A stretch of DNA of 64,000 bases from Leucobacter coleopterorum. Its GTDB lineage: Bacteria; Actinomycetota; Actinomycetes; Actinomycetales; Microbacteriaceae. Numbering within the stretch: the stretch's first letter is position 1; each line of letters starts with the position of its first letter. The stretch spans positions 2,418,001-2,482,000 of the forward strand of contig NZ_CP049933.1 of NCBI RefSeq assembly GCF_011382985.1, in the 5' to 3' direction. Made by a program: the position numbers and the translations under genes. Shown one piece after another: positions 9,154-64,000 of this stretch. Under the pieces are notes generated by a model, which was not told where the DNA came from, made no database searches, and saw nothing but the letters and a program-made list of their open reading frames with translations.

Positions 9154-10033
9154 CTACCAGCGTTAATGGTCGCCTTCGTAACCGCACCAGCCTCAACTCC
9201 CGCATCCTTGAGAATCTTCGTGTAGGTTCCGTCATCAATGAGTGACTGCAAAGCCAGTTGAAGAGCCTCCCCATAGGCGATCCCTTATCAACCACAAAAC
9301 CATAGGGTGTCATGTCGAATGCCTCTCCGGATGGCTCAAGCTGGTCGTTGCTCTGCGCGATCGCGTCGAGCGAGACGGGTGAATCGGCGGAGAAGGCTTC
9401 GGCCTTACCCAGCCTCACCGCGTTGGTCACCTGAGCCTGGTCATCAAAAGGCACCATTTCGATTGGTTTTTTACCGGCGGCCTCACACTCAGCTGATTTT
9501 TTTGGCAACTCATCGAGGTGTTGAAACGAGCCCTGCTTCACCGCAATCACGTGCCCGCACGCATCGTTCGGGTCGACCAGTTTGCCCGTAGGCGCCACCC
9601 AGAGCACTCCCGCCTCATAATAGTTCACAAAATCGACAACTTTCTGCCGCTCTTTGTTGTCGGTGAAGGATGCCGATCCCATATCCATCGCGCCCTCTTG
9701 AATGTTGGGAATGATGGTCTCGAACGAGGACTCTTGCCACACTGGCTTCAACCCAAGCTTGGATACAACAGCCTCGGTAAGGATCACAGCCCACCCGGCA
9801 TAGTTGTTGTTTTCATCGCGGTACTCGTTCGGCGGGTACGGCGTGTGAACACCGATAACAGCTTCACCGCTCTCTCGAATATCGGCCGGCACCAAGTCGC
9901 TCGCCGCCTTATCAACCTCAACACTGACGCGTTCGGTGCCACCCTGAGTTTCCCCTTCAGTATTCGTGACGCAGCCACTCAGAGCAAGGGCAGCCACCAC
10001 CGCAGCGACGGGCAAGAGGTGTTGAATCTTCAT
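9150..10033 (-). CDS. Polar amino-acid ABC transporter substrate-binding lipoprotein
   Basis: A family 3 solute-binding protein of about 294 residues. The ATG at 10033 has AGGAGA just upstream. A lipoprotein signal peptide ends in LALSGC (lipobox). Mature sequence shows the fold markers EAVIGVHTPYPPNEYRDENN, WAVILTEAVVSKLGLKP, IPNIQEGAMDMGSASFTDNKERQKVVDFV and SADSPVSLDAIAQSND. One G is missing near 9272; with it restored GSPMG continues as EALQLALQSLIDDGTYTKIL and ends at TAG 9150. No permease or ATPase lies next to it, so it must work with transporter parts elsewhere or is an orphan left by the rearrangement that truncated the APH gene. Confidence 0.85.
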
Positions 10034-10085
10034 CGATTCTCCTATATGTAAGTATGTTTTCATATTACGAACTTTCAGCATAATA

Positions 10086-10125
10086 CAAACGCGCCCGCCA
10101 GATCGAAGTCCAGCGGGCGCGTTTG
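10086..10125 (-). terminator. Hairpin terminator after the APC permease gene
   Basis: A perfect 13-bp inverted repeat (CAAACGCGCCCGC / GCGGGCGCGTTTG) with a 14-nt loop lies just beyond the permease stop at 10144. The following T-rich stretch on the minus strand is weak, so termination efficiency is uncertain. Confidence 0.6.
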
Positions 10126-10143
10126 GAAGGTACGAGCGAGCTA

Positions 10144-11567
10144 CTAGCCAACTCCCTCAAGCATCTCAGTGTGCGTATTGCCCACGTTATTGAGAACCTC
10201 GGGGCGGTTCACCTTGATCCACCAGAAGCGCACAAACGCGAGCAGCATGGTCGCCACAAAGATGTATGGAATCACATTGATCGGAAACGCGGGAACGGGA
10301 TACACGTTGGCGACAAACACGTACGCCATCGCCACGACCGCAACAACGGCACAGATCCACACGAGTGTGTTCTTCATGCCCCTGCGCCTCGTGTACACGA
10401 CCCCCGCAATTGCGACCAGCGCGTACGCAACCATGTACCCGTAGGTGCCGTACGTATCGACCCACACGGTGATGTCCATGGGGTGCGTTCCCATGAGCAG
10501 CAGAATAACGTCGAGCAGGATCGCCGCCGGTCCTGCAACGAGCAACACACGGTGCGGGTGAGGTGTGTCTCGTGGGTGCGCCCGAAACGCTCGGGCACAA
10601 TGCCTTCTTTGCCCATAACGTAGACGATGCGCCCAACCACGTTCAGCGGAGCAACAACAACAGCGAAGAACGAAGCGGCGACGCCAAATACCAGGATCGG
10701 CGCGAACCAGGCTGGCATGCCGATCCGCTCGTTGATCGACTGCAATGGGCTCGCGACCTCACCCAGCTCGTCACCGAGCACCGCGATCTGCGTGTAGGCG
10801 GCGAACACGTACAGCACACCCACAACGACGGCACTCCACATGATCGCACGCGGGATCGCGGTGTGTGGGTTGCGTGCCTCGCGACCAAGCGCGTCAGCTG
10901 AAGAGAACCCAACGAAACCGAGGATGCCCAGCACCATTCCGGCGGCGACACCTTGGAACGGCACACCTTCAAACGAGAACTGGGAGGGATCCCAAGCGTC
11001 TGGGCCAAGCCACACGAGCGACGACACGAGCAGCACCATGATGATGAACACCGACACGAGTTCAAGCACGAGCGAGATGCGTGCCGAAATGCGAATGCCG
11101 CGGATCGTGAAGAACGTGGCGAGCCCACCGATCACGATGGCGAGCACAATCAGCCACACGGTTCCGGTAGCCGGGACACCGAAGATCTGCAGCAGATCGG
11201 AGGCATACGAAACCGCGCCACCGAGGGAACCCGCCGCGATCCCCCACGAGCCAATGAGCAGGGCAACACCGGCAGCGAACGCACCGGTCGGGCCGAGACC
11301 CTTCGCAACGTAGGTGTAGAGCGAGCCCGCTGAGGCATGCTGGCGCGCGAACATCGACACGATGTAGCCAACGCAGAGGATCACGATCGTGGCCAAGAGG
11401 AAGGCCGACATTGTGCCGTTGCCTGCACCGAGGAAGATCGCTGCCGCGGTAAACGCGATGACGGCGCTGGGGGCGATGCTGGCGATGGCCTGGGCCGCGA
11501 GTTCGGGGCCCGACATCACCCCTTCGCGCAGGCCAGCATCGACCTTTCGTTCGGTTGTTTGTGTCAT
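10144..11567 (-). CDS. APC family amino acid/amine permease
   Basis: An integral-membrane amino acid or amine permease of the APC superfamily, about 475 residues, roughly 12 spans. Family features: EGVMSGPELAAQAIASIAPSAV in the first helix, SAGSLYTYVAKGLGP in helix 3, and GFVGFSSADALGREARNPHTAIP (the conserved E-A-R-N-P loop). The ATG at 11567 has an AGGAGAG Shine-Dalgarno. The frame breaks near 10552 (HLTRT then RVLLVAGPAAILLD; one C short), after which the last three helices follow. It is in line with the zinc alcohol dehydrogenase gene upstream, with PucR divergent, so it may take up an amine or amino alcohol oxidised by that enzyme (inference). Confidence 0.87.
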
Positions 11568-51852: not shown

Positions 51853-53759
51853 TTACCGTTGTCTCGTTGAGGCATACAGCTCTTCGATCACTTCGCCTGC
51901 TTGCTGCAGGAGCGCCTGCCGCTTCAGCTTCATAGTTGGGGTAACAAACTCAGCGAGCTGATCCGCCCCAACAAAAACCGCGGCCCACGTACCCACTCGT
52001 TCGGAAGGCAGGCCGCCCGCGTTGGCCGCATCGACCGCGTCCGAAAGCTGCTCCGTGAGACGCCCGTCTTGGCAGACCGTTATGCCCGGTTGCTGCAGGG
52101 CAGCGGGAGCAGCGTCTCCTCGCTCTGTAAACCACTCAGTCACCGCTTCTGAGTCCATCACGAGCAGACCCGTGAGAAACGGGCGATCAGTGCCAATAAG
52201 AACAGCGTGGGCAACGAGCGGGTGGGTTTCAACCGTCTGTTCCCAGTGCTCGGGCGAGATGGTTCGCCCAGTGGAGGTCACGATGACGTGCTTCAAACGG
52301 CCAACCAGTGTGAGTGAGCCGTCGGCACTCAGCCAGCCAAGATCTCCTGTGCGGAAGTAGCCATCGACAAAAGCGTCAGCATTGTGCGCCGGATTTCGGT
52401 ACCCGGCGAACACTCCCACTCCCTGCGCGAGCACCTCCCCGTTCTCGGCGATCCTGACCGAGTTACCCGGCAGTGGTGGGCCAACAGATCCGGCGATGAG
52501 GGATCCCGGGCGCCCTCCCGTAAGCGGCGCGGTGGTTTCAGTGAGGCCGTATCCCTCGATCACGGGAACGCCGATTCCTCGGAAGAACCGCGCAAGCTCA
52601 GGGCGAAGGGTCGCGGCCCCAGAGAGCAGATATTCGATGCGGCCGCCCATTACCGAACGAAGGCGCTGATAGAAGACTCGGTCAAACACGGCTCGACGCA
52701 GGCGTAGTGATAGGGGAGCCCGAAGGGCAGTATCCCGGTCCGCCACCTCAAGATACTCGCCCCAGGCTACGGCGGCCCGATGGGCGGCCCGCCACAGCGG
52801 CTGGACGCGCTTCTCACGAGCCGCCGCAGCGGCAGCACCCTCGATCTTCTCAAGCACTCGCGGCACAACAACCAAAAAAGTTGGCTTCAGGATCGCGAGC
52901 GCCTGCACCACCTCTTTAGGATCTGAAAGGTGCGCGATCCGCATTCCGTTCGCAATACAGATGAGCTGAAGAGCCCGCCCCAGCACGTGAGTGAGCGGCA
53001 AAAAGAGGATCGTGTTTCCGCTTTCTTTTACGACCTCTGAGTAAGCGGCGGCAGTGTTCATCACCTGTCCGACCAGGTTGCGGTGGGTAATCACGGCGCC
53101 CTTTGGGTCCCCGGTCGTACCTGAGGTGTAGACGATCGTTGCGACGTCATCGAGGGTTGCATGCGCTCGCCTGCTCTGCATTTCGGAGTCGGAGATGTTG
53201 TTCCCCAGTTCAACAAGCCCCTGCAGGGAATACGTAGATCCCTCGTCCATCACCCAGACAGCGTTCGAATCGGCGGTACTCTGCTCCAGCCCCTCCGCAC
53301 CCATCGCCCGAATGAGCCGCTCGCGGTGGTCCTCTGAACCAGCAAAGGCGAGCTTCGGTTGTGCGTCGGCAATGATCGCACTGAGCTGTTGGAGAGTGGC
53401 GGTGTCGTACACCGGCACCACAACGGCCCCGCAAACAGCGCGGCTTGGTCAACCACGGCCCACAGGTACTGCGTTGGGGCCATGATCATGATGGTGTCCC
53501 CTGCCGCAACACCGCTCGCAATGATCCCTTTTGCGAGGGCAGAAACCTCGCGCATGAACTCACGTGTGGTGATCTGTCTCCAGGGTTCATCAAGGGGCGC
53601 ATCGTGCTCGCGTCGCTCGAACGCTATATGGTCCGGGGCCGCAGCATCCCGTCGCATCAACAAATCGGTGACGTTTGAGATGGCTTCGATGTTCACGCTC
53701 TGCGGAGCAGAAGCGTGCTTCGTAAGCGTCTGGCTACTGGTTTCTGGCTGACTCGTCAC
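51853..53759 (-). CDS. Long-chain fatty acid--CoA ligase (AMP-forming)
   Basis: About 635 residues. An ANL-superfamily ligase, FadD15-like. Motifs: ATIVYTSGTTGDPKGAVITHRN (P-loop A3), EGYGLTETTAP (A5), GYFRTGDLGWLSADGSLTLVGRLKHVIVTSTGRTISP (A7-A8) and PTMKLKRQALL (C-terminal catalytic Lys region). Start GTG 53759. One G is missing near 53428, where LFAG must join AVVVPVYDTATLQQL. Activates fatty acids with ATP and CoA at the membrane face. A DUF1295 gene follows. Confidence 0.88.
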
Positions 53760-53828
53760 GCAACGAGCGTATCGAACACTCACTAGATAAGCTAGCGAAA
53801 ATTTGGGGCTTGACGATTCCAATACTGT

Positions 53829-54704
53829 TTACGGGAGCAATGGGAATATATCAAACAGGGTTGGGTTGTGCGCGTGAACAAGCACCGCAAACACCACCGC
53901 GTCGAAGAGCAGGTGCACGGTCACGACGTAGCCGAGCGAGCGGGTTCGCAGAAAAATGTATCCCTGCACCAGCGCAAAAGGGATCGTGAGCATCGGGCCC
54001 CAGGCGCGGTAACCAAGTTCCCACAGAAACGAAACAAACACAATGGCCTGCAGCGCGTTTGCTACCCATACGGGAAAGTGGCGCAGCAACAGGGCAAAGA
54101 CCGTGCAAATAAAGAATAGTTCATCCCAGATCCCGACGGCGCCCACACCGACAAAGAGCCGTGCAATCAGATCTGGGCTCGTGACCTCTGGCCAGTTTTG
54201 GTATACCCCGGAGCCAATAAAGTATGTGGGCAGGATCAGCCACCCCAGCACCAGCACGGCTACCAACCAGCTCCAGTGCAGAAACCCCCATTTGCCACCT
54301 GCACGCCAAGGAAAACCCGTTGCGCGATCCTTATAGATGTATCGAGAGATCAGGTAGGGCGCAAGCACCGCCCCGCCAAGCGCGAGCGTGAACTTCACCA
54401 TCGACCAGGTGTCAAGCTGGGCCGCAAGGGGAATGAGGCGCACAATTGCGAGCCCCACCACGATCAGTGAGAGATCGCGAAGCAGCGAGGGCGTCAGCTC
54501 GCCGTTCGGCGTTTGCAGCTCATGCGGTCCGCTTCTATGCGCTGTGCACCATGCAAGCGCCAACCCCAATGCGGCGAGCGCGATCCCGAGCCAGATCGCA
54601 TGGAGCACGAACCAGGCGGGAGCAGCGAGACACACGGTGAGTGCTGATATAAGCTGCAGCGGGCGCGCAGCGGTTCTCTGAACCTGAACCCCCGAATCGC
54701 GCAT
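53829..54704 (-). CDS. CPBP family (CAAX-protease-like) membrane protein
   Basis: 291 residues, intact. Seven to eight membrane spans. The CPBP region shows WDELFFICTVFALLLRHF, FVSFLWELGY and TVHLLFDAVVF, matching the order E-rich motif, FxxxW/H and His motif. The first motif reads D-E, where active CPBP proteases usually carry E-E-x-x-x-R, and the Arg is not in place. It may thus be a non-canonical or inactive member. It lies upstream of the acyl-CoA ligase gene on the same strand, and diverges from the UvrA-like gene. Confidence 0.72.
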   Translation of the reverse strand: MRDSGVQVQRTAARPLQLISALTVCLAAPAWFVLHAIWLGIALAALGLALAWCTAHRSGPHELQTPNGELTPSLLRDLSLIVVGLAIVRLIPLAAQLDTWSMVKFTLALGGAVLAPYLISRYIYKDRATGFPWRAGGKWGFLHWSWLVAVLVLGWLILPTYFIGSGVYQNWPEVTSPDLIARLFVGVGAVGIWDELFFICTVFALLLRHFPVWVANALQAIVFVSFLWELGYRAWGPMLTIPFALVQGYIFLRTRSLGYVVTVHLLFDAVVFAVLVHAHNPTLFDIFPLLP

Positions 54705-54781
54705 GCCCTGAGCCTAGCAATTCGCCTCTTCTGCGGCCCCTCAAGTCCGCATTGTCGGTGGCCCGCGATACCCTATTTCTC

Positions 54782-57166
54782 ATGAGCAACATTGAGCCTG
54801 CCACCGGTGCCGCTACGCTCCACCCGGCCGATTCACACGACCGCATTCGTGTTCAGGGCGCCCGCGAGCACAATCTCAAGAATGTCAGCGTTGAGTTACC
54901 TAAACGACGCCTCACAGTGTTCACCGGCGTATCGGGGTCGGGCAAGAGCTCACTCGTATTCGCAACCATTGCGGCCGAGTCGCAGCGACTCATCAACGAA
55001 ACCTATAGCGCATTTGTGCAGGGGTTCATGCCGAGCCAGAGTCGACCCGATGTCGACGTACTCGAGGGACTCACCACGGCAATCATTGTGGATCAAGAGC
55101 GCATGGGAGCAAACCCGCGTTCAACGGTCGGCACCGCGACCGATGTGAACGCCATGCTGCGCATCGTGTTCTCGCGGCTGGGCTCACCTCACATTGGCTC
55201 CCCTAACGCGTTCTCATTTAACGTGGCCTCGATCAGTGGTGCCGGCGCGGTCACCCTCGAAAAGGGCGGCAAAACAGTCAAGGAGCGCCGCAGCTTCGAG
55301 ATCTTGGGTGGCATGTGCCCGGAGTGCGAGGGGCGCGGCACGGTAAGCGACTTCGCTCTTGATGAGCTCTACGATGCGGAGAAGTCCCTCGCTGAGGGGG
55401 CTCTCAAAGTTCCCGGTTTCAGCATGGACGGCTGGTACGGGCGCATTTTTGCGGTGGTGCTGCCGATGGACAAGCCAATTCGCAATTTCTCAGCCCAAGA
55501 ACTTGAGATTTTGCTCCACAAGGAGCCCATCAAGGTAAAGGCCGAGGGGGTCAATGTCACCTATGAAGGCCTGATTCCGAGAATTCAGAAGTCGATGCTG
55601 TCGAAAGACAAGGAGGCGATGCAGCCGCACATTCGCGCCTTTGTGGATCGCGCGATCGTCTTCACCGCTTGCCCCATGTGCGATGGCACCCGTCTGAACG
55701 AAACCGCACGGTCCTCGAAGATCGACGGTGTCAGCATCGCCGACGCCTGCTCCATGCAGATCTCAGACCTCGCCGAGTGGGTTCGAGGCATTGCCGATCT
55801 CGGCTTGGCCCCGCTGATCGCCAAACTGCTCGACACGCTCGATTCATTTGTGCAGATCGGGCTCGGCTACCTGAGCCTCGATCGCCCAACCGGCACGCTG
55901 TCTGGCGGCGAATCGCAGCGCACCAAGATGATCCGCCACCTCGGTTCCAGCATCACCGATGCGACCTACGTCTTTGATGAGCCCTCGATCGGCCTGCACC
56001 CGCACGACATTCAGCGCATGAACCAGCTGCTGCTTAAGCTGCGCGACAAGGGCAACACGGTGCTCGTGGTGGAGCACAAACCCGAGATGATTGCGATTGG
56101 CGATCACGTTGTTGACCTTGGCCCGCGCGCCGGAGCCAACGGTGGCGAGATCTGTTTTGAGGGAACCGTTGACGATTTGCGAGCCTCAGACACGCTCACG
56201 GGTAGACATCTTGACGACCGGGCACAGTTGAAGAGCAGCACCAGACCCGCAGCCGGATCGATTGAGGTACGCGGCGCGCAGCAGCACAATCTGAAGAACG
56301 TAGACGTCGACATTCCGCTCGGTGTGCTGTGTGTCATTACCGGTGTCGCCGGTTCAGGCAAGAGCTCCCTCATTCACGGCAACGTGTCAGGGCGAGAAGA
56401 GGTTGTCGCTGTCGATCAGGGGGCGATCAAGGGGTCGCGCCGCTCCAACCCCGCCACCTACACTGGCTTGCTCGATCCGGTGCGCACCGCGTTTGCAAAG
56501 GCAAACGGAGTGAAACCCGCACTGTTCAGCGCAAACTCCGAGGGCGCCTGCCCCGAGTGTAAAGGGGCGGGCATCATCTTCACCGATCTCGGCATGATGG
56601 CGACAATGGAAAGCCCATGTGAGGTCTGCGAGGGGAAGCGCTTCGCTGCCGAGGTGCTGGAGTACAAACTCGGTGGCAAGAATATCGCCGAGGTGCTCGA
56701 TCTCAGCATGGCTGACGCGCACGAGTTCTTTGCCGCCGCAGATTCCAAGGTTCCGAAGGCGGTGAAGATTCTCAGCGGCCTTGTCGATGTGGGACTCGGT
56801 TATCTTACGCTCGGGCAGCCTCTTTCGACGCTGTCGGGTGGTGAGCGCCAGCGCCTCAAGCTCGCGATCCACATGCTCGATGATGCCGAGGTCTACGTGC
56901 TCGACGAGCCCACCACCGGTCTGCACCTCGCCGACGTCGAGCAGTTGCTCGGCCTACTCGACCGCCTAGTTGATGCGGGCAAGAGTGTCATCGTCATCGA
57001 GCATCATCAGGCAGTCATGGCTCACGCCGATTGGATCATCGATATCGGCCCAGGGGCCGGCCAGCAGGGTGGCACCGTGGTCTTCGAGGGCACCCCGCAA
57101 GACCTCGTCATTTCGAGGTCGACCATTACTGGTGAACACCTTGCGGAGTATGTGGGAGCGGTGTAA
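54782..57166 (+). CDS. UvrA-like ATPase (UvrA2/DrrC type, short form)
   Basis: 794 residues, intact. Two ABC modules: Walker A GVSGSGKSSL and GVAGSGKSSL, signatures LSGGESQR and LSGGERQR, Walker B TYVFDEPSIGLH and VYVLDEPTTGLH. Zinc-type CxxC pairs CPECEGRG, CPMCDG, CPECKG and CEVCEG. It is about 150 residues shorter than housekeeping UvrA, consistent with loss of the UvrB-binding domain, as in the UvrA2/DrrC group linked to resistance to DNA-binding drugs. ATG 54782 is preferred; no Shine-Dalgarno is seen, so the mRNA may be leaderless. Confidence 0.87.
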   Translation: MSNIEPATGAATLHPADSHDRIRVQGAREHNLKNVSVELPKRRLTVFTGVSGSGKSSLVFATIAAESQRLINETYSAFVQGFMPSQSRPDVDVLEGLTTAIIVDQERMGANPRSTVGTATDVNAMLRIVFSRLGSPHIGSPNAFSFNVASISGAGAVTLEKGGKTVKERRSFEILGGMCPECEGRGTVSDFALDELYDAEKSLAEGALKVPGFSMDGWYGRIFAVVLPMDKPIRNFSAQELEILLHKEPIKVKAEGVNVTYEGLIPRIQKSMLSKDKEAMQPHIRAFVDRAIVFTACPMCDGTRLNETARSSKIDGVSIADACSMQISDLAEWVRGIADLGLAPLIAKLLDTLDSFVQIGLGYLSLDRPTGTLSGGESQRTKMIRHLGSSITDATYVFDEPSIGLHPHDIQRMNQLLLKLRDKGNTVLVVEHKPEMIAIGDHVVDLGPRAGANGGEICFEGTVDDLRASDTLTGRHLDDRAQLKSSTRPAAGSIEVRGAQQHNLKNVDVDIPLGVLCVITGVAGSGKSSLIHGNVSGREEVVAVDQGAIKGSRRSNPATYTGLLDPVRTAFAKANGVKPALFSANSEGACPECKGAGIIFTDLGMMATMESPCEVCEGKRFAAEVLEYKLGGKNIAEVLDLSMADAHEFFAAADSKVPKAVKILSGLVDVGLGYLTLGQPLSTLSGGERQRLKLAIHMLDDAEVYVLDEPTTGLHLADVEQLLGLLDRLVDAGKSVIVIEHHQAVMAHADWIIDIGPGAGQQGGTVVFEGTPQDLVISRSTITGEHLAEYVGAV

Positions 57167-57210
57167 TTTCATAGCTACCCCGCGCCTCGCTACAGAATCA
57201 CAACATCGAT

Positions 57211-57956
57211 TTATCGTCCCGAAACGAGATCAGCAAGAACCTCGGCAGCGCGTTTCACGGCCAGACCAGCCGACTCGACGTTCTCATGTCTCATACGAAA
57301 CGTCGGGCCAGCCACACTCAGTGCGGCGATAATCGCACCGTCCACTCCGTGCACAGGGGCAGCAACGACCGTGGCGTCGGGGTTATCAACGGCCTCTCGC
57401 ACAACATACCCGACGTTGGGTGTACGCTCAGCAAACACTTCCCCGCCGCAGATCGATCGAGTGAGGCGGTCCTCCCCGCCCAGCCGTCAAACCCAACGTG
57501 GCGAATGGGCAGCGGACTCTGTACCTCTCTCAAAAACGTGCAGGTGTTCGAGGGTGTTGGAATGGCTAGGTAACTTGATTCGAGAGTTTCCTCGGTGAGT
57601 CTCTCCATGACGGGACCGGAGATATCCAGCAGCTGGGTGTCTCGGCTCGTAACAGCGGGCACTCGCGAATCAATAAAGCGCGACCCAAGGGCATACCTGC
57701 CGTCATCGGTGCGCCAAACGTACGACCACTGTTCGAGCGCTCGCAGCATTCTCATTGCGGTGCTAGCGGGCAGCTTACTCGCACGCGCAAGATCACTCAA
57801 CCCAATCGGTTCACGCTCTGTAACCAGGGTCAGGATCTCAAGTGCACGATGAACAGACTGGGGGCCTCGCATGTTTACGACGCTAGCTGGAGTGTCTTCG
57901 TCTTCTTCGGGCACCGCCGACCTCCTCATCCGGATGGAATCGATTGCGACTCCCAC
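57211..57956 (-). CDS. IclR family transcriptional regulator
   Basis: About 248 residues after one repair near 57441 (SAAG then EVFAERTPNVGYVV; one G short). N-terminal winged HTH: SVHRALEILTLVTEREPIGLSDLARASKLPASTAMRMLRAL. The C-terminal IclR effector domain has GYVVREAVDNPDATVVAAPVHGVDGAIIAALSVAGPTFRM. A GTG at 57956 has GGGGA upstream; ATG 57930 or 57870 are alternatives. It is downstream of, and in line with, the HAL-like lyase, next to a betaine-type transporter. It is therefore the likely regulator of both, possibly through the palindrome at 59487. Confidence 0.83.
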
Positions 57957-57992
57957 GGTTCCCCATTCTAGGGTTCAATCGACCGCGATCGA

Positions 57993-59434
57993 TTACGCAG
58001 AAACATCCCTTACCACGCGCGAAAATGCGGGTATCAACGCACGCGCAATATCCACGTCCCCTCGCAGGTCCCGATCTATCATGTCAGCAGGAAGCTGCTG
58101 AGCCAGCTCGATGAGGGCGCCAAGGGGCCCCGCATCAGCCCCTTCTGTTTCCTTCCTCAAGCGGATCGCACGCACCGCCACAATCATCTCGGCCGCCACC
58201 ATCACCTCGTACCCTTCAATGGAGCGTTCGAGTTTTCCAAGTGCCGTTGGTGCAAACGTTGCGTCTTCCTCCACCCCACAAGAAAGCACTGCATTTTGTG
58301 TCGAGACGGGTGAGGCGCTGGCCATCACCTCCCCATAGCGCTTGCCGCCAGGTACTCGAGCACCATAGTTCCCGACGAGCCGCTGAGGTTTGGTGCCAGG
58401 AATCGTGGGAGCCCTGTGAAGGTGTCGTCATTCAGAAACCTGACGCGCGCAAGCAGCATTGGTGCGGTCTGCGCAAGACTCATCGAAGTCGCATCGAGTT
58501 CGTGCGCAAGCCACGCTTCAAAAAAAGCACCGTGGTGAACGGCGCTGCCGGAATCCTCAAAAAACCGAGGGTTCTCTTGCGCACTGTTGATCAGGGTCTC
58601 AGCGGCCTCAGTGAGCCGCCGAACACTGCTCGAGAGCACACTAATAACGGGCAGAAACCCCCTGAACGCAAACGGGTCCTGAATGCGCGAGGGATCCCAT
58701 GTTGTGTCTCCGATCAGGGCAGCAATGAGGGCCGCGTTGTCTGCGGAAGCCGGGCTCGCCACCGCAAGAGCTGCCTGCCATGAGAACGCTGACGGGTTCG
58801 CCCGCAGCGCCCAGGCCGAGAGCACAAACGTAGCGATTGCCGCGTCGACAACACCCGCAAGGCGCGAAACTGTCAGGGCCGCACCACCAAGCGTGAATGC
58901 GTTCGAGCTCATGAACGGTAGCGCACTGTCAGATCGTATAGGGCCAATCGACTCAAAGGATCCAATTGTTGGGCGCTCACCGACCAAAGCAAGTGCGGTA
59001 CCGGCAAGAGCGGGGAGATCCCCCGTTCCAATGCCGCCATACTTTCGGATCTCGGGGAGGGCGTTTGTGAGCAGCATTCGTTCGAGGCCATCGATCACGG
59101 TAGGGGCAACTCCCGATCCGGGATGCAGGAGTTGATTCAGACGAACGGCAAGCATTGCTCGGGTTGCATCTTCACCAACAGCTGGTCCTGCGTCGACCGC
59201 GTGGCTGCGCAGAAGGTTCATCCCGTGGGATTCGGGATCTCCCTCAGCGGATGCAGTTCGATTCGCGCCCACTCCCGTCGAACGGCCATAAACGGGTTGG
59301 TGTTTGGCGATCCTATTTGCTGTCAGATAGTACGCCTCAATGCTCTGCCTTGCCGCAGCCGAAACGCTCACCGCAGCGCCCTTGGCAATGGAAACAACGT
59401 GTTCCGCGGTCAATTTGGTCGGGAGAGTGATCAT
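57993..59434 (-). CDS. HAL-superfamily lyase lacking the MIO triad (possible betaine lyase)
   Basis: About 481 residues. The fold of histidine/aromatic ammonia-lyases is clear: QPVYGRSTGVGANR (catalytic Tyr49 loop), LLRSHAVDAGP, AMLAVRLNQLLHPGSGVAPTVIDGLERML, PFMSSNAFTLGGAAL, RIQDPFAFRGFLPV and ALGKLERSIEGYEVMVAAEMIVAVRA. The segment that should hold Ala-Ser-Gly, from which the MIO electrophile forms, reads GIGTGDLPALAG (residues 134-145), so MIO cannot form in the usual way. The QDxYSxR block is also changed to QDPFAFR. One G is missing near 58334. ATG 59434 has TAGGAAAA upstream. It diverges from a quaternary-amine transporter, which suggests trimethylamine elimination from a histidine betaine (inference). 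Confidence 0.78.
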
Positions 59435-59486
59435 GTTTTTTCCTATTCGGGCACGAGCCGGCAGCTTGACGAGCGCCAACATTTAC

Positions 59487-59503
59487 TACATTATGAAAAT
59501 GTA
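59487..59503. promoter_or_regulatory. Putative operator, TACATT-N5-AATGTA
   Basis: A perfect 6-bp inverted repeat with a 5-bp spacer, between the divergent HAL-like and transporter genes, 53 bp from the lyase ATG and 107 bp from the ATPase ATG. A good candidate site for the IclR regulator at 57211. Confidence 0.45.
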
Positions 59504-59610
59504 CTTTTTCGCCAGGTGACAATTTCACGTACACGAGTCATCATAGCCACAAGCCAACGAAGCCTGACGCAACAAATCGTTCAGCGAAATAGAAAGACAA
59601 AGATGTCAGC

Positions 59611-60702
59611 ATGATTGAGTTCAAAAACGTCGTGAAGACCTACGACAACGGCCACACTGCAGTTTCAGATCTGTCGTTTACCGCCCCGACCGGCAAGATC
59701 ACCGTTCTCGTCGGCCCCTCTGGTTGCGGGAAAACAACCACACTCCGAATGGTGAACCGCCTCATCGAGCAGAGTTCGGGATCAATCCTGCTCGACGGAG
59801 AGGACAACGCCAAGACAGACACGATTCGCATGCGGCGCAAAATTGGATATGTCATTCAGAACGCGGGGCTCTTTCCGCATCAGACAGTCCTCGACAACGT
59901 TTGCGCGGTTCCATTTCTCGAAAAACAGGAGAAAAAGGCGAGCCGCGAGCGCGCCTTAGAACTGTTGACCCTCGTAGGCCTCGATCAGAGCTACGCCAAT
60001 CGTTACCCCTGGCAGTTATCCGGAGGCCAACAGCAGCGAGTCGGCGTGGCCCGAGCCCTCGCCGCCGATCCACCGTTCATGCTCATGGACGAACCGTTCA
60101 GCGCCGTTGATCCGATTGTGCGCAAACAGCTCCAGGCGGAGTTTCTCAAGATTCAGGCAAACCTCGCCAAAACCATTGTGATGGTCACGCACGACATCAA
60201 CGAGGCCCTAAAGCTTGGCGACCAGATTGTTGTGTTGCAGGAGGGAGGCATTCTGGCCCAGATCGGCTCCCCCGCAGAGATCCTGGCCCACCCAGCAGGC
60301 CAGTTCGTTGCTGACTTTCTCGGAGAGTCACGCGGGTACCACGCCCTCAACTTCGAACAGATTTCGACGCTGCTGCTTGATGATTCCCCCAAGCTGCGTC
60401 TCGGCGATATCGCTCCGAGCCATCTTCACGGTTCTTGGGTGGTGGCGTGCGACGGCAACAATCGCCCGCTCGGGTGGACTCTCGCTGGGGATCGTCACGT
60501 TACGGCAGAAGACATTAACCTCTCCATGACCGTTCAGCATTCCACCGGCAACTTCAGGGAGCTGCTCGATGCCTCGCTGGCGAGCCCCAACGGTCGTGCA
60601 ATCCTTACAGACGACAACGAGCAGTACCTCGGAACCCTCAGCTCCGAACTAGTGATGCAGCGCGCAACCCAATCGCTCCGGGCGGAAGAAACTCTCGCAT
60701 GA
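59611..60702 (+). CDS. Quaternary-amine (OpuC/OsmV-type) ABC transporter ATPase
   Basis: 363 residues, intact. ABC domain with Walker A GPSGCGKTTT, Q-loop VIQNAGLFPHQTV, signature LSGGQQQR and Walker B MLMDEPFSAVD, as in glycine betaine/choline/carnitine transporters. A C-terminal extension of about 120 residues has remains of a CBS-type regulatory fold (VVACDGNNRPLGWTLAG; AILTDDNEQYLGTL). ATG 59611 follows AAAGACAAAG. The stop overlaps the first permease start (ATGA). First gene of a four-gene operon. Confidence 0.93.
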   Translation: MIEFKNVVKTYDNGHTAVSDLSFTAPTGKITVLVGPSGCGKTTTLRMVNRLIEQSSGSILLDGEDNAKTDTIRMRRKIGYVIQNAGLFPHQTVLDNVCAVPFLEKQEKKASRERALELLTLVGLDQSYANRYPWQLSGGQQQRVGVARALAADPPFMLMDEPFSAVDPIVRKQLQAEFLKIQANLAKTIVMVTHDINEALKLGDQIVVLQEGGILAQIGSPAEILAHPAGQFVADFLGESRGYHALNFEQISTLLLDDSPKLRLGDIAPSHLHGSWVVACDGNNRPLGWTLAGDRHVTAEDINLSMTVQHSTGNFRELLDASLASPNGRAILTDDNEQYLGTLSSELVMQRATQSLRAEETLA

Positions 60703-61346
60703 ACCTTGATTGGATCACAAACAACCTCGCCCTCATCGGCGATCTGACAGCAGCCCACCTCTGGCTCACGTTACTACCAACGGTCATTGGGCTGGTGCTC
60801 TCAATCCCGCTGGGATACCTCGCATTTACGCATCGCAAGTGGTACCCGACCATCGTTGGCGGCACGGGGCTGTTCTACACCATCCCCTCCCTTGCGCTCT
60901 TCATCCTGCTGCCAAAGCTGCTGGGAACCCAGGTGCTCAACCCGATGAACATCGTTGTAGCACTGGTCATCTACACGGTGGCGCTTCTCACACGGGTCGT
61001 CGCTGACGGGCTTGACTCTGTGTCACCAGACGCAGTGCAGGCAGCCACCGGCATCGGTTTCACTCGAGCAGAGACATTCTTCAAGATCCAGCTCCCGATC
61101 GCAGTCCCCGCTGTCATGAGCGGCCTCCGGGTCGTTGTTGTCTCAAATATTTCAATCGTCACAATGGCGGCCGTCATCGGCATTGCGCAGCTAGGATCCC
61201 TGTTCACGATGGGATTCACACGGCACCTGTTTGTGCCCATCGTCGTGGGGCTCGTTGCATGCCTTCTCCTTGCCCTCGTGCTTGATCGCCTGCTGGTACT
61301 GCTCGGCAGGGTCATGACCCCGTGGGGTCAGAAAGGAGCTCTGTAA
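60699..61346 (+). CDS. Quaternary-amine ABC transporter permease 1
   Basis: 215 residues, intact. OpuCB/OpuBB-type permease with about five spans and the cytoplasmic EAA-like loop (SPDAVQAATGIGFTRAETFFKIQLPIAVPAVMSGLRV). It begins MNLDWITNNLALIGDLTAAHL, overlapping the ATPase stop by 4 bp. Pairs with the next permease. Confidence 0.93.
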   Translation: MNLDWITNNLALIGDLTAAHLWLTLLPTVIGLVLSIPLGYLAFTHRKWYPTIVGGTGLFYTIPSLALFILLPKLLGTQVLNPMNIVVALVIYTVALLTRVVADGLDSVSPDAVQAATGIGFTRAETFFKIQLPIAVPAVMSGLRVVVVSNISIVTMAAVIGIAQLGSLFTMGFTRHLFVPIVVGLVACLLLALVLDRLLVLLGRVMTPWGQKGAL

Positions 61347-61348
61347 CG

Positions 61349-62083
61349 ATGGATATCTTCGCTTGGCTCACAGATCCCGCGAACTGGTCGGGGCTCGGAT
61401 CAATCCCGTTTCAAACGCTCATGCATTTGCTGTACTCGGCCATCACGCTGGTGATTGCTGCACTCATTGCCGTGCCCCTCGGCCTGTATGTTGGGCACAC
61501 GGGCAAGGGCGAGAGCCTGATCATGGGCTCGGTCAATGCAATGCGAGCGTTACCGACGCTCGGCCTGTTAATTTTACTTGTGCTGCTGCTTGCGCCGAGG
61601 ATCAGCAACAGTCTCGCCTTCGTTATCCCCTCTCTTGCCGTTTTGGTGCTGCTTGCGGTTCCTCCCATCCTCAGTGGGGTCGCGAGCGGGATCCGCGCGA
61701 TTGACCGCTCGGTCATCGATGCGGCTCGAGGTATGGGCTACTCAACGAGCGAAATCATCTGGAAGATTGAAATGCCGTGCGCGCTCCCCCTGACTCTTTC
61801 TGGGGTTCGCGGAGCGACACTTCAGGTCGTTTCTACCGCAACCGTCGCCGCCTACGTGTCGCTCGACGGCCTCGGTCGGTTCATTATCGACGGGCGCGCC
61901 GCGAACGACTATGCAGAGATGGCCGGTGGCGCGATCCTGCTCGCGGCACTCGCGATCCTTTTGGAGCTTTCATTTTCCATCGTCAGCAAATTTGTCGTAT
62001 CACCGGGACTCACCCGAAAACAAAAACGTCCTGCCGCGGCCGAGCAGTTCGAATCTGCAACGACAGCAATACAGGTTGTGTAG
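61349..62083 (+). CDS. Quaternary-amine ABC transporter permease 2
   Basis: 244 residues, intact. Second OpuC-type permease: SAITLVIAALIAVPLGLYVGHTGKG, the EAA loop VIDAARGMGYSTSEIIWKIEMPCALPLTLSGVRGA and a Lys/Arg-rich end. ATG 61349 has AAAGGAGC upstream and lies 2 bp after the preceding stop. Together with permease 1 it forms the membrane channel. Confidence 0.93.
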   Translation: MDIFAWLTDPANWSGLGSIPFQTLMHLLYSAITLVIAALIAVPLGLYVGHTGKGESLIMGSVNAMRALPTLGLLILLVLLLAPRISNSLAFVIPSLAVLVLLAVPPILSGVASGIRAIDRSVIDAARGMGYSTSEIIWKIEMPCALPLTLSGVRGATLQVVSTATVAAYVSLDGLGRFIIDGRAANDYAEMAGGAILLAALAILLELSFSIVSKFVVSPGLTRKQKRPAAAEQFESATTAIQVV

Positions 62084-62113
62084 CCAGTCCATCCCCTTAC
62101 ACAAGGAAACAGC

Positions 62114-63025
62114 ATGAATATTTTGAAGAAGAGAACCCTGTCCACTTTTGCCTTAGTTTCGGCCGCGCTGATATTGACGTCATGCAGCAGCAGTGATCCG
62201 ATGGCAACGAGTAGGGGCGGTTCGTCAAACAGCGACACCGTAGTCGTTGGCTCGGCAGACTTTGCAGAGAGCCAGCTCATCGCCACGATCTACTCCCATG
62301 CCCTGCAAGACACGGGCATCAAGGTCGAGGAGAAACTCAACATCGGCAGCCGTGAGGTGTATATGGAGGCGCTGCGCGACGGTTCGATCAATTTGCTACC
62401 CGAATACAACGGTTATCTGCTTGGCGAGCTCGATGCTGACGCCGACACCTCGGATCGATCCACAATTGATGCGCAGCTCGCAAAACTGCTGGCTTCCGAG
62501 GGCATCGAGGTGCTCGATGCTTCGAAGGCCGAAAACACCGACGTTCTTGTTGTGGACCCCACGGTTGCCAAGCAGCACAAGCTAGAGAACATCTCTGATT
62601 TGCAACCAGTAGCGGGTGAGCTGGTGCTCGCGGGACCAGCCGAGTGGAAATCACGCTACGTAGGGCTCCCCGGTCTCGAAAAAGAGTACGGTCTCTCCTT
62701 CAAGGAATTCAAGGTGCTCGATGCGGGTGGGCCACTGACACTCTCTGCTCTGCAGAACGGGCAAGCTCAGGTTGGTGATCTCTTCAGCACCGACCCAGCA
62801 ATCGAAGAGTCAAAGCTTGTCACGCTCGTCGACGACAAGGGCCTGTTCTTGCCAGCGAACATCCTCCCTGTGATCCGCAAGGACGCCGCAAGCAAAGAGG
62901 TCACAGAAGTGCTCAATAGGGTCTCAGCGTCGCTCACCACCGAAGACCTGATGCACATGAACGGCCGCATCGCAGCCGGAGACGACTTTGGAGCAATCGC
63001 CGACGATTGGCTCAAGGAGAACTAG
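62114..63025 (+). CDS. Quaternary-amine ABC transporter substrate-binding lipoprotein
   Basis: 303 residues, intact. Lipoprotein signal ending LILTSC. OpuAC/OsmF-type binding domain: VVVGSADFAESQLIATIYSHALQDTGIKVEEKLNIGSREVYMEALRDG, LLPEYNGYLLGEL, VLDAGGPLTLSALQNGQAQVGDLFSTDPAI and NILPVIRKDAASKEV. An AAGGAAAC site precedes ATG 62114. Last gene of the transporter operon, ending at a perfect 55-bp hairpin. The ligand cannot be assigned from motifs alone; aromatic-box residues need a model. Confidence 0.92.
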   Translation: MNILKKRTLSTFALVSAALILTSCSSSDPMATSRGGSSNSDTVVVGSADFAESQLIATIYSHALQDTGIKVEEKLNIGSREVYMEALRDGSINLLPEYNGYLLGELDADADTSDRSTIDAQLAKLLASEGIEVLDASKAENTDVLVVDPTVAKQHKLENISDLQPVAGELVLAGPAEWKSRYVGLPGLEKEYGLSFKEFKVLDAGGPLTLSALQNGQAQVGDLFSTDPAIEESKLVTLVDDKGLFLPANILPVIRKDAASKEVTEVLNRVSASLTTEDLMHMNGRIAAGDDFGAIADDWLKEN

Positions 63026-63028
63026 CTA

Positions 63029-63083
63029 CTTCCACACCGACAAGCCCTGATCTCGTCGAGATCAGGGCTTGTCGGTGTGGAAG
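63029..63083. terminator. Long perfect bidirectional terminator hairpin
   Basis: Two 27-bp arms perfectly complementary around a single central T, immediately after the transporter operon stop (63025) and before the convergent LOG gene end (63125). The tip is GATCTCG-T-CGAGATC. It probably stops transcription from both sides. No T-run is present. Confidence 0.75.
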
Positions 63084-63124
63084 GGGCTAGCGGGCACACT
63101 ACCCGAACTGGTTGATCGCTCGGA

Positions 63125-64000
63125 TCAGGCGGTGTAGCTCTCCGACCGCCCGGGGCGCGGAGTCAAGATGATGCGCGGGAGCGCCAAAAGATCTCGCTCG
63201 TCTCGCTCCACCTCTAACGGTTCGGTCCGTTCGATACCGCCTTCAAGACACAGTCCCGAGAAGTGGTCGTTCAGACTCGTCATTTCTGCGTCGCTCAGTT
63301 CCCTGTTCAATCGGAGAATCAGGCGGTCCCCCACCCAACGCAGCGAGTCATAGTTGCGCCAGAACCCCGTGATCTCAGCAATGGCATCTTCAACCGAGTC
63401 GGTAATCAGCACACGATCAAGATCGTCGATGGAGATCATGCCCGTTCCGGCCATCTCTTTCATCGCGAACTGAGCAAACCCTCGCCAGAAACTGCCCCCG
63501 GGGCGATCAAGCAACACGATCGGCACTGGGATCATTTTACCGGTCTGCTGCAGCGTGAGCAGTTCAAGCGTTTCGTCAAGTGTGCCAAAGCCGCCGGGCA
63601 GGCATACAAACCCACTCGACTCTTTCACCAGCATGAGCTTGCGAGTGAAGAAGTATTTCATCGAGACGAGGCGGTCCTTCTCAGCAACCGTCGCGTTGGG
63701 CTGCTCCTCGAACGGCAGACGAATCGATACCCCCAACGAGTGTTCCGATCCTGCCCCCGTCGCGGCAGCCTCCATAATTCCGGGCCCTGCACCGGTCACC
63801 ACAAACCACCCCTGATCGGCAAGGCCCGAGCGGTGGCCTCAGCACTCAGCCAGAGCGGATCATTGGCATGCGTGCGAGCCGATCCAAAAATCGACACTTT
63901 GGGCACCCCGTGGTGCGGCGCAAACAGTCGGAACGCCGCACGCATCTCTTCAAGCGCAGCGGCCGTGATCTTGATGTCGAGCCGGCCAGCCTCATCTTGG
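63125..64000 (-). CDS. LOG family protein (lysine decarboxylase-like fold), partial
   Basis: Nucleotide phosphoribohydrolase of the LOG type (TIGR00730 group). It shows PKVSIFGSARTHANDPLW, VVTGAGPGIMEAAATGAG and the catalytic PGGFGTLDETLELLTLQQTGK. One G is missing near 63823 (ATARG-LADQGWFVVTGAG), and the N-terminus runs past base 64000. The C-terminal extension (LRWVGDRLILRLNRELSDAEM) makes it longer than minimal LOG proteins. Function in bacteria is hydrolysis of nucleoside 5'-monophosphates; a cytokinin role is not implied here. Confidence 0.85.

Follow-up and report, generated by a model that had tools for sequence, protein, structure and literature searches.

The analysed stretch of the Leucobacter coleopterorum genome (contig NZ_CP049933.1, positions 2,418,001 to 2,482,000; 64,000 nucleotides, hereafter the window) carries a lyase of the histidine ammonia-lyase (HAL) family that lacks the residue triad of the 4-methylideneimidazole-5-one (MIO) cofactor. 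The lyase gene lies on the minus strand, where a gene for an IclR-type regulator follows it, and a four-gene importer of the OpuC type diverges from it on the plus strand. We propose a role for this unit in the catabolism of hercynine, the betaine of histidine. Its genes and features are listed here by position in the window; L025 is the corresponding locus of a close relative, in which the lyase gene is intact.

57211..57962, minus strand: IclR-family regulator gene (PF09339, E 4.9e-11); frame break near 57378; the end at 57211 is read from the sequence; intact in relatives
57996..59434, minus strand: MIO-less HAL-family lyase (PF00221), proposed hercynine trimethylamine-lyase; the start, the end and the frame break near 58331-58334 are placed by comparison with L025
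59481..59511, no strand assigned: conserved element of the divergent promoter region, GAAAAAGTACATTTTCATAATGTAGTAAA on the minus strand, from an alignment of the window with five relatives
59611..60702, plus strand: importer ATPase, ProV-like, with a C-terminal extension (ABC_tran, E 1.6e-35; TIGR01186 proV, 305.1 bits)
60699..61346, plus strand: importer permease 1 (PF00528, E 2.6e-14); the L025 counterpart is 95% identical
61349..62083, plus strand: importer permease 2 (PF00528, E 1.9e-22); start placed by comparison with L025, the longest open reading frame beginning at 61322
62114..63025, plus strand: substrate-binding protein of the OpuAC family (PF04069, E 8e-51), without the EgtU signature and without part of the aromatic cage

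The lyase gene matches PF00221 (Lyase_aromatic) in two pieces, 58325-59482 on the minus strand (E 1.5e-61) and a continuation in another frame at 57993-58328 (E 4.5e-7). All importer genes are unbroken and make up the full set recognised by Pfam, a ProV-like ATPase, two binding-protein-dependent permeases and an OpuAC binding protein; the score of the ATPase against the proV subfamily model is below the cut-off of 326.6 bits. The preliminary description of this DNA had reported a HAL-type lyase without MIO, divergent from a complete OpuC-type importer and adjacent to an IclR regulator, and these assignments stand, the coordinates included, with the qualification that the lyase and regulator genes are frame-broken. 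The helix-turn-helix domain of the regulator is present (42.7 bits, cut-off 22), and its C-terminal domain stays below the cut-off (20.4 bits, cut-off 24) because of the frame break. In the region between the divergent genes, alignment of the window with the five near relatives yields the invariant columns T-TTCATA-NN-GTA-NN-AA (window 59483-59499), a candidate regulator site or promoter. A strict regular-expression search for a palindromic operator matched just one of the six upstream regions.

The frame breaks extend beyond this unit. Only residues 6-200 of the 254-residue regulator of L025 align in one frame of the window (57962-57378). Among nine genes compared with L025, five match in a single full frame and four do not (AMP-ligase, IclR, lyase and LOG-like), the LOG-like gene being truncated by the window's end as well. 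The AMP-ligase and LOG-like genes (window 51853-64000) are unrelated to the unit, and the urocanase elsewhere in the L. coleopterorum genome (L086, 8713-10355) also matches in two frames. With damage also in these unrelated neighbours and in the distant urocanase, the breaks look like indel error in the assembly or general frame damage rather than a loss confined to this unit. In the near relatives L024-L027 the lyase frame is open; the lyase matches of two other relatives (G682 and G506) hold one stop apiece. Furthermore, the lyases of the window and L025 differ at 13.0, 6.0 and 50.0% of first, second and third codon positions (368 codons), and this dominance of third-position changes indicates that selection has preserved the lyase protein.

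Active site and kinship of the lyase

To place the lyase we compared it with 53 related loci, the window itself not counted. They comprise the matches of the nine best relatives (E 1e-32 or better), one named match (L024, from Glutamicibacter sp. PS, with the lyase at 9998-11458), 20 of 21 further order-sample matches above 300 bits (G184, at a contig edge, was left out), and 20 new class-sample and three new phylum-sample matches (E 1e-85 or better). Between 7.7 and 21 kb was read at each locus, in some cases up to a contig end. Twenty canonical HAL loci, taken from lower-scoring matches and from the L. coleopterorum genome, served as controls. Viral contigs yielded no confirmed relative of the lyase.

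At the cofactor loop the window lyase reads GGIG-TGDL, where the HAL of Pseudomonas putida has GSVGASGDL and the ergothionase of Treponema denticola has SSIG-EGDI. The loop thus has T-G-D in place of A-S-G-D and is one residue shorter, leaving no MIO triad. The same absence and the same shortening recur in all 53 related loci, with a threonine after the gap in 52 of them and an isoleucine in L150, and C-S-G-D is present in 20 of 20 canonical controls. Ergothionase is described as lacking MIO in PMC13405746, and its structure 6S7J has the same one-residue-short loop, which bears out the earlier statement that ergothionase is an MIO-less relative of HAL.

Other parts of the active site are conserved. 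The equivalents of HAL H83, R283 and E414 are retained in every MIO-less row that covers those positions. In the window, the first lyase piece retains the T-G-D loop, Y53, H83 and R283, and the E414 equivalent, read by eye, lies in the second piece. SS-type residues stand in place of the NGT of the HAL N195 region, and HAL Y280 is a phenylalanine in the window. An extra histidine, two residues ahead of the glycine in the F329 region, is found at 50 of the 53 loci, the exceptions being L149, L150 and L151. We take H83 and E414 to be imidazole contacts in HAL, and for Y280 and N195 we likewise assume the roles given in the HAL literature. Against the NCBIfam hutH equivalog (cut-off 539.15 bits), the 385-residue window piece scores 141.3 bits, the intact lyase of L033 129.6 and that of L149 331.3, all below the cut-off.

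Two quick trees, without bootstrap, were built after near-duplicate and short sequences, 25 of 85 rows in all and 13 of these MIO-less lyases, had been left out. The 60-row tree puts the 41 MIO-less rows on one side of a branch with a Shimodaira-Hasegawa-like approximate likelihood ratio (SH-aLRT) support of 99, and ergothionase on the other, together with HAL and with paralogues that carry AAGE in the loop. The clustering with MIO-type HALs that would have counted against the preliminary description therefore did not occur. When the AAGE rows are removed, ergothionase, whose branch is very long, moves to the MIO-less side (SH-aLRT 95.5). A search with the L024 lyase gives ergothionase 87.6 bits and the HALs 85-96.5.

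The AAGE paralogues are a second HAL-like protein encoded near the lyase at eight loci (L080-L085, for example L080 14325-15683; L144 13203-14597; L151 12593-13777). In this protein AAGE replaces ASGD, and an arginine occupies the H83 position in the seven sequences covering it. The five rows entered in the tree group together.

Linkage to the importer and to histidine utilisation

The pairing of lyase and importer noted in the preliminary description extends to the relatives. An importer permease lies within 10 kb of the lyase at 46 of 53 MIO-less loci versus none of 20 canonical HAL loci (Fisher p 2e-12, kinship ignored), and a binding protein lies within the same distance at 45 of 53 and none of 20, respectively. 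The unit is thus conserved and real, not a chance neighbourhood. An IclR match occurs within 1.5 kb of the lyase at only 21 of the 53 loci. For this reason we rejected the IclR gene as a marker of the unit, and also because an open reading frame of IclR appearance, recognised by eye, also adjoins the canonical HAL of L. coleopterorum (L034, 8976-9761).

The binding proteins were compared with EgtUC of Listeria monocytogenes at residues taken from PMC9732360. In all 43 readable binding proteins, the window's included, F and Y stand in place of G244 and F293, the ergothioneine determinants of EgtU according to that paper; three more proteins are without that region. This replacement indicates that the importer is not EgtU, and the EgtU-like assignment suggested earlier finds no support. 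Y341 is replaced by D in 42 of the 43, the exception being L149, which retains tyrosine at both 341 and 443. The equivalents of E375 and R379 are retained in the rows covering them. In the window the aromatic-cage positions 293, 341, 419 and 443 are Y, D, F and A, short of a full trimethylammonium cage.

The L. coleopterorum genome encodes a second OpuC-type binding protein (L154, 1483-2457), 37% identical to that of the unit and with the same aspartate in place of the cage tyrosine. Because it shares the E and D positions, these are no mark of the unit, and we rejected the binding-protein signature as proof of the ligand.

Genes of histidine utilisation (hut) are recurrent neighbours of the lyase. 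A urocanase lies within 10 kb at 24 of the 53 loci, spread over nine family codes. In L031, L032 and L033, from the same genus, the lyase (or its flank) is separated from the importer by genes for an imidazolonepropionase, a urocanase and an arginase-family protein. In L073, hutI and hutU adjoin the lyase. A HAL-hutU-hutI cluster directly adjoins the unit in L133 and L137, and HAL and hutU adjoin it in L139 and L140. In the distant relative L149 (4350-16096), HAL, importer, lyase, hutU and hutI all lie on one strand. Elsewhere in its genome, L. coleopterorum encodes HutU, HutI and a canonical HAL. Besides the in-unit sets of L031-L033, a canonical HAL-hutI-hutU cluster (L105) is present in genome G003.

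The association is also seen at the level of genomes. A urocanase was found in 40 of 41 lyase-bearing genomes tested (from the 53 with a studied locus, L. coleopterorum included), the one miss being G904, a draft of about 350 contigs. In the order sample of 198 genomes a urocanase is present in 111, a number that may or may not include the L. coleopterorum genome, and it occurs in 16 of 16 lyase-bearing genomes versus about 95 of 182 others (Fisher p 6e-5, kinship ignored). EgtD was found in none of 37 same-genus genomes and thus offers no usable contrast. Without EgtD in the genus, hercynine would come from outside. Fungi and many actinobacteria make hercynine.

The class of the neighbouring urocanases bears on the product of the lyase. 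We scored ten urocanases, eight of which neighbour the lyase (within 10 kb), against the NCBIfam models for urocanate hydratase (hutU, cut-off 375 bits), thiourocanate hydratase (NF058530, 930) and S-methyl thiourocanate hydratase (880). The lyase-neighbouring urocanases of L073, L074, L130, L133 and L149 reach 880-924 bits with hutU, 646-681 with the thiourocanate model and 675-712 with the S-methyl model, and classify as plain urocanate hydratases. Canonical urocanases of the same genus (L087 and L105) give 867-869, 628-644 and 676-677 bits, respectively. The in-unit urocanases of L031-L033 score 651-663, 590-596 and 629-635 bits and pass the hutU cut-off only. In view of the control scores of the plain urocanases, these in-unit enzymes are weakened as proof of a urocanate product. 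None of the ten reaches the thiourocanate hydratase cut-off (590-681 bits). The HutI proteins of L031-L033 are above their own cut-off (310.5-336.3 bits, cut-off 298.15).

A further cassette lies near the lyase at 18 of the 53 loci and consists of genes for a LacI regulator, an amidohydrolase-like protein and a cysteine-dioxygenase-like protein (PF05995), in varying order and orientation. The loci are L074-L085, L139-L142, L144 and L145 (for example, L074 10882-13693) and represent five family codes, two of the order of L. coleopterorum and three outside it. The cysteine-dioxygenase-like gene (for example, L075 8634-9209) is within 2.5 kb of the lyase at all 18 and near none of the 20 controls. 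NCBIfam gave no name for the dioxygenase-like or the amidohydrolase-like protein.

Hercynine as the proposed substrate and its alternatives

We infer the substrate, the products and the role of the regulator from these features as follows. The OpuC-type ABC importer would take up hercynine (N-alpha-trimethylhistidine), and the MIO-less lyase would eliminate trimethylamine from it to yield urocanate, which would enter ordinary histidine utilisation through HutU and HutI and on to glutamate. The MIO group turns ammonia into a leaving group; trimethylammonium leaves without such help, for which ergothionase is the precedent. Trimethylammonium being a good leaving group, the MIO electrophile would not be required, and the imidazole would be held by the retained H83 and E414. 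The IclR protein would control the divergent promoters. The retention of H83 and E414 suggests an imidazole substrate and the OpuC type of the importer a betaine-like one; the neighbouring hut genes suggest urocanate as the product. Hercynine is favoured because it agrees with all three at once. Between the two substrates named in the preliminary description, ergothioneine and hercynine, the context also favours the latter, in that five neighbouring enzymes are clean urocanate hydratases, and the in-unit urocanases of L031-L033 are the part that is not clean. On balance, we consider uptake of hercynine and its cleavage to urocanate and trimethylamine, feeding the Hut pathway, the probable function of the unit, if by no wide measure.

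Several observations weigh against this function. The unit of the window holds no hut genes itself, and both its lyase and its IclR gene have broken frames. Kinship among the loci makes the neighbourhood counts non-independent, and seven of the 53 loci (L067, L129, L136, L142, L143, L145 and L151) have no importer in the stretch read. The margin of hutU over the S-methyl model is 22-28 bits for the urocanases of L031-L033 versus about 190-212 for plain urocanases, and this branch may serve a modified urocanate. Two ureohydrolases tested (L032 and L033) miss every listed cut-off, with 80-81 bits for formimidoylglutamase versus the 229 needed. In the binding protein the trimethylammonium cage is partly lost (Y341 to D and Y443 to A in the window), and the pocket, judged by its residues, does not reveal the ligand. 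An AlphaFold2 run on two sequences, the Glutamicibacter lyase and the window piece, gave a predicted local distance difference test score of 38.6 and a predicted template modelling score of 0.31. Finally, the kinship of the lyase to ergothionase takes opposite placements in the trees with and without the AAGE paralogues.

Some of these points would also fit a different substrate, carried by the same importer, that has an imidazole and a good leaving group, or subgroups that differ in substrate. The binding pocket departs from that of EgtU and from that of classical cage proteins, the L025 lyase is only 29-38% identical to the more distant rows first aligned, and L031-L033 carry a divergent urocanase branch. 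However, the plain urocanate hydratases beside the lyase point to urocanate, a product that few natural compounds other than histidine and hercynine would yield, and we regard a different compound as unlikely, though not strikingly so.

Somewhat less probable again is a true ergothionase, cleaving ergothioneine to thiourocanate and trimethylamine behind an importer of ergothioneine. The short loop of 6S7J, the tree without AAGE paralogues and the near-S-methyl scores of the L031-L033 urocanases are consistent with it, and for some lineages the cysteine-dioxygenase-like gene of 18 loci is a hint of sulfur chemistry. Yet ergothionase falls on the opposite side of the tree that includes those paralogues, none of the ten urocanases tested reaches the thiourocanate hydratase cut-offs, the EgtU residues G244 and F293 are absent from every readable binding protein, and no cysteine-dioxygenase family gene was found in the L. 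coleopterorum genome. That the lyase is non-catalytic here, or the unit decaying, with the two broken frames as pseudogenes and the stops in G682 and G506 as further signs, is very improbable given the damage to unrelated genes, the dominance of third-position changes and the open frames of L024-L027.

With hercynine as the substrate, the cassette described above can be given a place. Our guess is that it feeds in ergothioneine, which would be oxidised at sulfur, lose sulfite and give hercynine. We tentatively extend this to a wider picture, somewhat on the doubtful side, in which the MIO-less hercynine trimethylamine-lyases form a phylum-wide lineage distinct from ergothionase, with a dedicated importer and a direct entry of histidine betaine into the Hut pathway; lineages with the cassette would first desulfurise ergothioneine to hercynine, giving one oxygen-dependent route from ergothioneine to glutamate. 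In the parts of the open-licence literature covered, no catabolic route for hercynine was found, subscription work on ergothioneine breakdown being outside that scope. If correct, the proposal would identify a further bacterial source of trimethylamine and provide a function for genes whose top NCBIfam match is histidine ammonia-lyase, below cut-off. Furthermore, a second lineage of MIO-less lyases would suggest that loss of MIO accompanies a quaternary leaving group.

Comparison with known systems

A close parallel is ergothionase (T. denticola 6S7J and 6S7Q; Burkholderia sp. HME13), which, like the lyase, belongs to the HAL family, has no MIO triad, has a loop one residue short and retains the H83, R283 and E414 equivalents. 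It differs in the loop itself, E-G-D rather than the T-G-D of the window. In the search with the L024 lyase, ergothionase is no closer than the HALs, and the tested urocanases beside the lyase miss the thiourocanate hydratase cut-off. HutH shares the family and the Y53, H83, R283 and E414 positions, but has the A/C-S-G triad and the NGT of the N195 region, neither of which is found in the lyase. The neighbours of the unit match the Hut pathway (HutU and HutI) where plain hutU genes stand beside the lyase (L073, L074, L130, L133 and L149), whereas the in-unit set of L031-L033 is divergent, with 651-663 bits for hutU versus 867-924 for the seven others.

On the side of the importer, the permease and binding-protein genes of the window are separate, and EgtU is, as we take it, a permease fused to its binding domain. 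Both are of the OpuC type and have the E375 and R379 equivalents, but compared with EgtU of Streptococcus pneumoniae and others, as given in PMC9732360, the binding proteins of the unit have G244 to F, F293 to Y, Y341 to D (42 of 43) and Y419 to F. The unit should work like ergothionase combined with an importer, yet it is not to be filed as ergothionase or as EgtU.

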